Of a DNA stretch of 41,918 nucleotides, positions 19,493-21,574 are shown piece after piece. The notes beneath the pieces were generated by a model, which saw nothing but the letters and a program-made list of their open reading frames with translations, searched no databases and was not told the DNA's origin. Origin of the DNA: Bacteroidota bacterium (lineage in GTDB: Bacteria; Bacteroidota; Bacteroidia; Bacteroidales; F082); assembly GCA_003650365.1 (NCBI GenBank), contig QMPA01000003.1:1-41918 (forward strand). Direction: 5' to 3'. Within the stretch, counting starts at the first letter, position 1; each line of letters starts with the position of its first letter. The position numbers and the translations under genes were made by a program.

Positions 19493-20395
19493 ATGAATTA
19501 CATCATCCTTCAAAAAGGTTTTTCAACTTACCTGAAACTGGAAAGGGGCTTGTCAAAGAATACCTTAGAAGCCTATTTGCACGATACCGATTTGTTGTTT
19601 TCTTTTTTGAAAGCTGAAAAAGAAGCTATTCCAATTCAGAAAGTGAGCATGAACGACCTCAGTGATTTTATCGTTTACATTCATAAAATGGGATTGGGTT
19701 CCTGGTCGCAATCACGTGTGCTTTCCGGAGTTAAAGCGTTTTTTAAATATTTGATGATTGAGCAGGTTATTGATAAAAACCCTTCTGAATTACTGGAATC
19801 ACCCCGCCTTGACCGCAAATTACCCGAAGTGCTGAGCCTGGATGAAGTGGAAAAAATGATTGACACGATTGATTTATCGGAATCACAAGGCGAACGCAAC
19901 AAAGCCATTATTGAAACCCTTTACGGATGTGGGTTGAGGGTTTCAGAGCTCACCGGATTAAAAATTTCAGATCTCCACTTGAACGAAGACATGATAAGTG
20001 TTACAGGAAAAGGAAATAAGCAACGCCTGGTACCCGTAGGTGCTTTGGCCAAAAAACAAATTACGACTTACTTAAAGCAGATTCGCATCCATATTATCCC
20101 ACAAAAGAAATACGAAGACATTTTATTTCTCAATCAAAACGGACGTCAGTTGAGCAGACAGATGGTATTTATTATCGTGCGCACCTTGGCCGAAAAAGTG
20201 GGCATTAGAAAAAAAATAAGCCCGCATACTTTCCGGCATTCTTTTGCTACACATTTGGTAAAGGGTGGTGCTGATTTGCGTGCAGTCCAGGAATTATTGG
20301 GACACGTATCTATTACAACTACCGAGATTTACACCCACCTTGATACCGATGATTTAAGAAAGGCAATTATGGAATTTCATCCAAGGAATCGGTAG
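19493..20395 (+). CDS. xerD: Tyrosine site-specific recombinase XerD
   Basis: XerD works with XerC at the dif site to resolve chromosome dimers. The 300-residue length and chromosomal setting fit a housekeeping Xer protein. The N-terminal SAM-like DNA-binding domain covers about 1-85. All catalytic residues are present: Arg149 (YGCGLRVSEL), Lys173 (VTGKGNKQR), His245 and Arg248 (PHTFRHSFATH), His271 (LLGHVSITTT) and nucleophile Tyr280 (EIYTHLD). Start ATG 19493 follows an A-rich stretch. I saw no dif-like site or mobile element next to it, so an integrase role is less likely. XerC versus XerD assignment rests on overall resemblance only. Confidence 0.9.
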   Translation: MNYIILQKGFSTYLKLERGLSKNTLEAYLHDTDLLFSFLKAEKEAIPIQKVSMNDLSDFIVYIHKMGLGSWSQSRVLSGVKAFFKYLMIEQVIDKNPSELLESPRLDRKLPEVLSLDEVEKMIDTIDLSESQGERNKAIIETLYGCGLRVSELTGLKISDLHLNEDMISVTGKGNKQRLVPVGALAKKQITTYLKQIRIHIIPQKKYEDILFLNQNGRQLSRQMVFIIVRTLAEKVGIRKKISPHTFRHSFATHLVKGGADLRAVQELLGHVSITTTEIYTHLDTDDLRKAIMEFHPRNR

Positions 20396-20471
20396 AAATA
20401 TTTGAATACTTAAACAAATTATTGTATTGTTTACAAACAAACAAATGCTATAGGGTTGTTATTAGCACGTA

Positions 20472-21010
20472 GTTGACGTTAATATTAAATAAAGTAATAT
20501 GGAAAAAGATTGTTAAGAATTGAAATAATAGTTATTACTATATTTATCATTACGTTAATCAACTTATTTCTGCCATATATAATTGATTTGGATTATTCAG
20601 GAAAACAAAATAACAAAACTGCGACCACGAAAGAATTACCTGCTGACCTTACGAAACAACGATTAAATAAAATTACATATAAAATTAAAACTGACTTTAA
20701 TCATTCAGACTGGAACGAATTTCATAATGTGTTTGGAGAATTTGCTAAAGCACAAATTAATGTAGAAGATATTGAAAGTGGATTTATTAAACTTAAAACT
20801 GTTGTTGGTAATATCCAGACTTATGCGTACTCCCATTATGAATATGAAGAGAATAGGGAAAACGCTGATTGGTTTATAATTTATTATAAATGCAGATTTG
20901 ATAATGGAAAAGGGAGCATTAAGATATCAACTCGGACTCTAGATAATGTATCTGAGGTTACTGGAGTAAATATTGTTTTAGATGAATTATAAGAAAGTAC
21001 TAACGTCAAC
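20472..21010. repeat. 10-bp inverted repeats flanking an orphan gene
   Basis: GTTGACGTTA at 20472-20481 and its exact reverse complement TAACGTCAAC at 21001-21010 bracket a single small ORF. If five more inner bases are counted, 13 of 15 match. The enclosed DNA is visibly more AT-rich than the genes around it. This could mark a gene-cassette-like insertion or be coincidence. No transposase, no target duplication and no integron-type GTTRRRY site was seen. Confidence 0.5.
20510..20992 (+). CDS. Unrecognised small membrane-anchored protein
   Basis: I do not recognise this 160-residue protein. Its N-terminus is a hydrophobic anchor (IEIIVITIFIITLINLFLPYII), so the rest is probably outside the cytoplasmic membrane. 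The C-terminal part (about 60-160) looks like a small alpha/beta domain, with FHNVFGEFAKAQINVEDIESGF and WFIIYYKCRFDNGKGSIKIST. The start is TTG at 20510, since the frame has a stop at 20495 and contains no upstream ATG; the ATG at 20499 is out of frame and stops after five codons. The gene is AT-rich and bracketed by the inverted repeat GTTGACGTTA, hinting at recent acquisition. Coding status is likely but not certain. Confidence 0.6.
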   Translation: MLRIEIIVITIFIITLINLFLPYIIDLDYSGKQNNKTATTKELPADLTKQRLNKITYKIKTDFNHSDWNEFHNVFGEFAKAQINVEDIESGFIKLKTVVGNIQTYAYSHYEYEENRENADWFIIYYKCRFDNGKGSIKISTRTLDNVSEVTGVNIVLDEL

Positions 21011-21121
21011 AAAAAATATAGTGCATTTGACAAATAGTACTGAATATGAAGGTTATAATAATAAATAAAATTAGTTGTAAATTGAAAATGATGCGTTTCA
21101 AAAAGCCAAACGTACCATAGC

Positions 21122-21574
21122 TCAAACCCTTTCAATATCCCCATCCTCATCCACAAAAACACCAAAGTTCATGTAGATGAGCTTTCCTTCACGAAAGAAA
21201 AAATCCATCATGCTGAAATCGTAGGAGAGGCGGATGTCATTTTCTTCAACTTCTCTTTCGAAAGTTGAATGCCCGTTATTTTTCAGGAGTGCAATCAATT
21301 CCGCTTCCGTCAAACCCATGATCTTGCTACCAAAAAGTGTAGTATCGGGGTGGTCGGTTTCAATTCCGGCCAGAATCTGATTGGCAAGCCCCACAAAGAA
21401 AACAGAAAAGCCCCCTTTCCAATAATGGAGCAGGGTTGTATTCATTTGTTCGTCTTCTTCAATCGTATCCATATCTTCGGCCTGTCCAAACTGCTCAATA
21501 AATTCATCTATTGCAATTCCAAAAGTCAATTCTCCCAATCCAATATTTGGATTAATATCGTGTTTTTTTAGCAT
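21122..21574 (-). CDS. Unrecognised small acidic soluble protein
   Basis: A 150-residue protein with no signal peptide or membrane segment and a clearly acidic composition (DMDTIEEDEQ, EVEENDI, VDEDGDIERV). Repeated elements such as GLGELTFGIAIDEFIEQFG and IMGLTEAELIALLKNNG suggest an alpha/beta fold in which a helix measures a short distance from a sheet, a little like immunity-type or SMI1-like proteins, but I cannot assign a family. ATG at 21574 is a good start. It converges with the AT-rich orphan gene at 20510-20992. Upstream lies a 286-base AT-rich gap before the SDR gene, in which I see no gene. Confidence 0.7.
   Translation of the reverse strand: MLKKHDINPNIGLGELTFGIAIDEFIEQFGQAEDMDTIEEDEQMNTTLLHYWKGGFSVFFVGLANQILAGIETDHPDTTLFGSKIMGLTEAELIALLKNNGHSTFEREVEENDIRLSYDFSMMDFFFREGKLIYMNFGVFVDEDGDIERV

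Follow-up and report, generated by a model that had tools for sequence, protein, structure and literature searches.

The stretch of DNA analysed here, referred to as the window, comprises 41,918 nucleotides of a Bacteroidota genome and contains on its forward strand a TTG-started orphan open reading frame of 160 amino acids (20510-20992), which is enclosed by an exact 10-nt inverted repeat, GTTGACGTTA at 20472-20481 and TAACGTCAAC at 21001-21010. The repeats stretch to 13 nt at 92% identity, and the pocket holding the orphan frame has a GC content of 28% compared with ~40% around it. Both the repeat-bounded frame and the AT-rich pocket had been pointed out in a sequence-only reading of the window, which took them for a single-gene cassette or a non-autonomous element, and both are borne out by our analysis. 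The frame had rightly been called unrecognised, as its sole family match is a weak one to DUF3887 (E 3e-5, under the cut-off) and no homologues were found in 99 related genomes. Structure prediction, which the same reading had recommended, was informative for part of the product: a single-sequence model gives a confident helix for residues 1 to ~25, a probable membrane anchor, and models the remainder poorly, and the fold of the whole protein was discarded as unusable.

The left neighbour of this unit is a housekeeping xerD gene (19493-20395, + strand), assigned as XerD by the curated model TIGR02225 (341 bits, cut-off 329.6), and its right neighbour is a conserved DUF gene (21122-21574, - strand) convergent with xerD. 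The sequence-only reading had regarded the Xer recombinase as a relevant neighbour and the DUF gene as a second unrecognised gene of the pocket; however, the convergent xerD-DUF pair is kept in relatives across the order, and both genes lie outside the unit. In most relatives the two genes lie -40 to 40 bp apart and in the same-genus genome G002 163 bp, but here the gap is 726 bp. Flanking synteny is continuous in the relatives and the orphan gene is absent, so the empty-site comparison favours an insertion, and the unit appears to have entered between the conserved xerD and DUF genes. The adjacent xerD was rejected as its driver on the grounds of the TIGR02225 assignment and the same synteny in relatives, and the closeness of a Xer gene looks coincidental, since xerD adjoins the same DUF gene across the order.

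Taken alone, the repeat pair is no more than chance, because shuffled sequence gives such pairs as often: the + strand of the window contains 5 exact GTTN7...N7AAC pairs with a spacing of 250-3000 bp, and dinucleotide shuffles contain 4.4 on average. The right arm, nevertheless, finishes exactly on the AAC of a conserved ~130-bp element; given this anchor, we put the expected number of 10-nt complements in the ~1.5 kb upstream of it at ~0.001-0.003, and the position of the right arm is not due to chance.

A dispersed attC-like element at the right end of the unit

The left end (20453-20481) is single-copy in this genome, and its DNA fold, considered alone, is not significant. Searching the genome with the whole region returned a second match, covering the right end only and lying 3' of another orphan membrane-protein gene. 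The stretch 20985-21125 was matched by BLAST in 33 of 100 relatives; a genome often had several copies, which at times followed one another along a single contig. When the copies are aligned with their flanks, similarity begins at AAC and ends at GTT, and the sequences differ outside these limits. The element, which in the window extends from 21001 to about 21131, starts with (N7)AAC, ends with GTT(N7) and forms a covarying hairpin. Its 16-pair stem is upheld across 39 copies of differing sequence (91.6% paired), with 82 cells changed on both sides compared with 20 in shuffles (0 of 500 shuffles as high), and the covariation signal is lost when the partner strand is slid.

At two stem positions, four pairs apart, A faces C on the top strand in 38/39 and 36/39 copies, and the same positions hold in 79/100 and 96/101 sites of a larger model-aligned set, corresponding to T.G on the bottom strand. 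The bottom strand is the better-folding one in 82 of 98 copies, compared with 36% of random segments from the same loci. An extra base in one stem column was seen in 30/102 copies, mostly those of a repeated cassette in the complete genome G004 (see below); bulged bases are thus present in some copies but are not the rule. No Rfam family matched the element.

In its consensus, the family has AAC/GTT core sites bounding an imperfect palindrome 3' of a gene, and we interpret the element as an attC-like recombination site. Integron core sites follow the consensus RYYYAAC for R'' and GTTRRRY for R' (PMC12901181). This consensus is obeyed in part: the window R' reads GTTGACG, AAC/GTT and R at +3 hold, and the three bases after GTT in the G004 cassettes are R, then mostly G/T, then mixed. 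Integron attC sites also carry two to three extrahelical bases (PMC11641012), instead of which the present family has the two conserved A.C (bottom T.G) positions.

The window copy of the attC-like site (21001-21136, + strand) is decayed at its 3' end. It matches our covariance model of the family, R1, with 111.5 bits (G000:C3:21001-21136, E 1e-19) and itself belongs to the training set. The R''-type core site TAACGTCAAC at 21001-21010, which supplies the AAC boundary, is intact, and the hairpin arms are TATAGTGCATTTGAC at 21017-21031 and GCCAAACGTACCATA at 21105-21119. These are followed by a degenerate R' region (21120-21131), GCTCAAACCCTT compared with the consensus TTCAAACCGTT, that shares bases with the DUF gene at its 3' end. 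The right end of the site reads CATAGCTCAAACCCTT, whereas the family has CATATTCAAACCGTT, so that there is no clean GTT; its last bases double as code for the conserved DUF protein end and may be native to the DUF gene. If the empty site is reconstructed at G|TT, the DUF protein is expected to finish in DIETTC, whereas the DUF proteins of same-genus relatives end in IERV, as does the window copy, and this disagreement makes the exact right boundary uncertain. We accordingly place the putative solitary cassette at 20473-21129, with ~10 nt of uncertainty on the right. The window attC folds poorly (-7 kcal/mol) and, because it is decayed at the 3' end, the cassette is probably immobile now, locked by its damaged 3' core.

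Integrase-headed cassette arrays in Bacteroidota

The R1 model, which was trained on the same copies from which it was derived, detected sites in 75 of 100 related genomes and, at a stricter limit, in 90 of 297 Bacteroidota. The system is thus widespread in this phylum and seems to have been overlooked, as no earlier description was found in the open-access PMC literature. Genome G004, which is complete in a single contig, has 66 sites, all on the + strand, within ~66 kb (1944372-2010367), and this array lies directly 3' of an integrase gene (1942151-1943314), its first cassette starting 43 bp after the integrase stop codon. The G004 cassettes (n=65) start with GTTN7, with GTT invariant and A at +10, and end with the reverse complement of that start; the match between a cassette's own R' and R'' averages 8.7 nt compared with 4.1 nt for shuffled cassettes, and spans 10 nt in 35/65. 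The left end of the window unit obeys the same rule, being complementary to its own R'' at 10/10 nt and having A at +10. It can therefore be described as an R'-type core site (20472-20481, + strand), with the crossover predicted between G20472 and T20473. Since this end fits the cassette rule and its flank (agcacgta|GTT) is unlike attI flanks, the window cassette is best read as an insertion at a secondary, non-attI site.

Among 80 tyrosine-recombinase loci of named genomes, all 27 R1 matches (27/27) lie downstream of, and on the same strand as, integrases of one family, and none was found in the ~42 loci of other recombinases that served as a control. The attI position was examined through the complement of the first R'', which occurs at most 200 bp from the integrase stop in 13/18 loci, compared with 2/306 when R'' is swapped between loci; by position, an attI adjoins the integrase. 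Among the relatives, a strong integrase match goes with the presence of attC (43/47 vs 32/53, Fisher p 0.0004). MAG assemblies break in repeats, and the E-values of the analysis are rough. In the 32 of 53 relatives that have sites but no strong integrase match, the assembly could be fragmented, the integrase could have been lost, or the enzyme could be one that the profile does not cover.

The integrase is also found on plasmids of Rufibacter tibetensis, Pontibacter kalidii and Chryseobacterium sp. SNU WT5, where cassettes come after it whose ends pair in the same way. The integrases and cassettes of these plasmids are co-directional; the attC-like sites of Rufibacter and Pontibacter, at ~60-70 bp, are short, and most of them escape detection by R1. 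In the genome under study, contig C159 encodes an integrase of this family, with an attI-like cassette start 165 bp past the stop codon and an attC, and the genome has at least 11 attC-like sites overall. A cassette on its contig C66 is 79% identical to one of G004, and a third copy occurs in G003 (74%); no other G004 cassettes were matched at the C66 and G003 places. One cassette in three genera with no shared neighbouring cassettes is what cassette exchange would predict.

Among the products encoded in the G004 cassettes are an OLD-like ATPase, a retron-type reverse transcriptase and SIR2, caspase-like, Fic, AbiJ-like and PemK-like proteins, and the array is rich in anti-phage defence-like genes, PDC-S02 included. 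About 20 near-identical cassettes without an open reading frame are spread through it. They have ~400 bp between core sites and an attC spacing of 510-520, are similar to cassettes without genes in the super-integrons of Vibrio, and may harbour promoters. Several further arrangements were observed. On contig C160 of the genome under study (L003:1500-2400), an attC-like site is directly followed by an apparent group II intron (GTGTGC start, maturase-like frame), as if the intron had inserted at attC, and a group II intron maturase lies within the Chryseobacterium plasmid array (15744-17060 of locus L222). On a mobilizable plasmid of Flagellimonas marinaquae (L226:3900-4745), two attC-like sites flank a dihydrofolate-reductase-family gene next to erm(F), placing such a cassette close to a resistance gene.

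A distinct integrase family

The cassette integrases are set apart from IntI by several measures. The spacing between the KG..R and H..RHS motifs is 58-59 residues in the family (up to 63 in a few), compared with 66 in XerD and 100-103 in IntI, including IntI1, so the ~42-residue IntI insert is missing. Against the integron integrase model TIGR02249 the family scores 165-215 bits (cut-off 265), with the match split at the place of the insert, and against the XerD model TIGR02225 158-194 bits (cut-off 329.6). A quick tree places IntI in one clade (support 100) without the family, and the 38 Bacteroidota rows group apart in another (support 95). In its predicted fold (pLDDT 82) the integrase is closest to XerA and then to the Vibrio integron integrase, with residues 1-80 forming an additional N-terminal domain, which occurs in one to three tandem copies and perhaps binds the folded attC or attI arms. 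By these comparisons the family is separate from IntI. It is present in cultured Bacteroidota and on plasmids, and the enzyme for the window cassette was likely the recombinase of contig C159 rather than XerD.

A bare TIGR02249 match was dropped as an IntI locator: Xer proteins also match this model, in 14 of 14 control genomes, and IntI was therefore counted by the cut-off only. On this count IntI was found in 1 of 100 relatives (G066, contig C50, insert present) and not in the complete genome G004. The extra domain of IntI accommodates extrahelical bases (PMC4792948), and an additional domain between patches is treated as defining for IntI (PMC9668308). The insertion is not fully conserved in an "integron-like" subgroup (PMC8138268), so some insert-less relatives have already been seen in sequence classifications.

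Discussion

We hold it highly probable that the window unit is a worn solitary cassette of a Bacteroidota integron-like system, inserted outside its array. What the sequences offer for this reading comprises the cassette ends, the attC covariation, the strand-biased folding, the integrase-headed arrays and the attI position, to which are added a cassette shared across genera and the insertion that separates xerD from the DUF gene. Against it stand the poor folding of the window attC and its lack of a clean GTT on the right, a left flank unlike those of attI, the relatives that have sites but no strong integrase match, and the training of R1 on its own source copies. The single-gene cassette of the sequence-only reading stands, its repeats being the core sites R' and R'', and the view of it as an isolated new small element does not, since it is an outlier of a large system whose integrase is encoded at another place in the genome.

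Under the proposed mechanism, the integrase, which belongs to the XerA/IntI branch and bears an additional N-terminal domain, would recombine attI and attC at G|TT. The attI site would be double-stranded and lie just past the integrase's own stop codon, and attC would probably be used as a folded bottom strand, as in integrons. Excision would produce a circle with R' and R'' paired, same-strand arrays would grow by integration at attI, and occasional non-attI targets would give rise to solitary cassettes such as the window unit. That the integrase performs the reaction, that the substrate is single-stranded and that replication resolves the product, we infer.

The locus could also be explained in other ways. 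An ordinary integron cassette might have been moved by the canonical IntI of another bacterium, the Bacteroidota integrase being a bystander. The integron-like attC architecture and the IntI of G066 agree with this, but that IntI is the only one above the cut-off among 100 relatives, G004 has a 66-site array and none, arrays begin just past the other, non-IntI integrase, and the sites have the A.C (bottom T.G) positions (96/101 and 79/100) and no regular extrahelical base; we consider this explanation very improbable. A single gene inside short exact inverted repeats, together with a dispersed right-end element, would suit a non-autonomous transposon, MITE-like or IS-derived, with terminal inverted repeats and a DDE or HUH transposase. 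This origin is most unlikely, as the repeat sequence varies between cassettes yet pairs within each, unlike transposon ends, the conserved element occurs at one end only, and units stand head to tail on one strand 3' of a tyrosine recombinase.

The two remaining explanations are hardly tenable. One of them, which sees in the element a terminator or a structured RNA of the 3' untranslated region and in the gene an orphan without connection to it, draws on the hairpin's location just 3' of genes; but no Rfam family matches, the better-folding bottom strand (82/98 vs 36% in controls) is the wrong strand for the gene's RNA, and the paired cassette ends and integrase-anchored arrays are unaccounted for. 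The other, in which the 10-bp repeats arose by chance around an ordinary lineage-specific frame, is compatible with the equal frequency of repeat pairs in shuffled sequence and with a frame without homologues, but an element identified independently has its AAC boundary exactly at the right arm, and the frame is additional sequence between conserved neighbours.

Returning to the reading as a displaced cassette, our verdict is that the Bacteroidota cassette system represents an integron variant that appears to be new. We lean, with some reserve, towards the broader proposal that Bacteroidota harbour a second kind of integron, based on a non-IntI, insert-less lineage with N-terminal repeats and a T.G-marked single-stranded attC, which forms super-integrons and defence-stocked plasmid arrays and escaped notice because detection depends on the IntI insert. 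The dedicated IntI domain is regarded as necessary in integrons for gripping the extrahelical bases of the folded attC. If the proposal is true, folded-DNA cassette capture is possible without this domain or regular extrahelical bases, cassette capture perhaps arose twice, the role of the IntI insert becomes directly testable, and the abundance of orphan and defence genes among Bacteroidota would be explained. The cultured hosts Flavobacterium, Algoriphagus, Zunongwangia and Rufibacter make the system accessible. The only complete integron in Bacteroidota reported by IntegronFinder 2.0 was in Salinibacter ruber (PMC9024848).

The closest solved relatives of the integrase, both by sequence and by fold, are archaeal XerA and Xer proteins (4a8e, 5hxy). 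The Xer/dif system acts on double-stranded dif to resolve chromosome dimers and is not known to include cassette arrays or an N-terminal repeat domain. Canonical integron integrases reportedly also insert cassettes at genomic attG sites, as Loot and colleagues are said to have described in 2024; such insertions resemble the window case in leaving a solitary cassette at a non-attI place and differ from it in enzyme class. With integrons, including super-integrons, the Bacteroidota system shares a tyrosine recombinase, an adjoining attI, same-strand arrays of one- or few-gene cassettes, AAC...GTT core sites, cassette-specific complementary ends, an imperfect hairpin attC with the stabler bottom strand, and arrays containing defence genes and cassettes without open reading frames. 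It departs from IntI/attI/attC integrons in an integrase that lacks the IntI insert (58-59 vs 100-103 residues), falls outside the IntI clade, bears one to three copies of an N-terminal domain and shares the cassettes' direction of transcription, and in attC sites that have two conserved bottom-strand T.G pairs, a bulge in some copies only and core sites that do not all conform to GTTRRRY.
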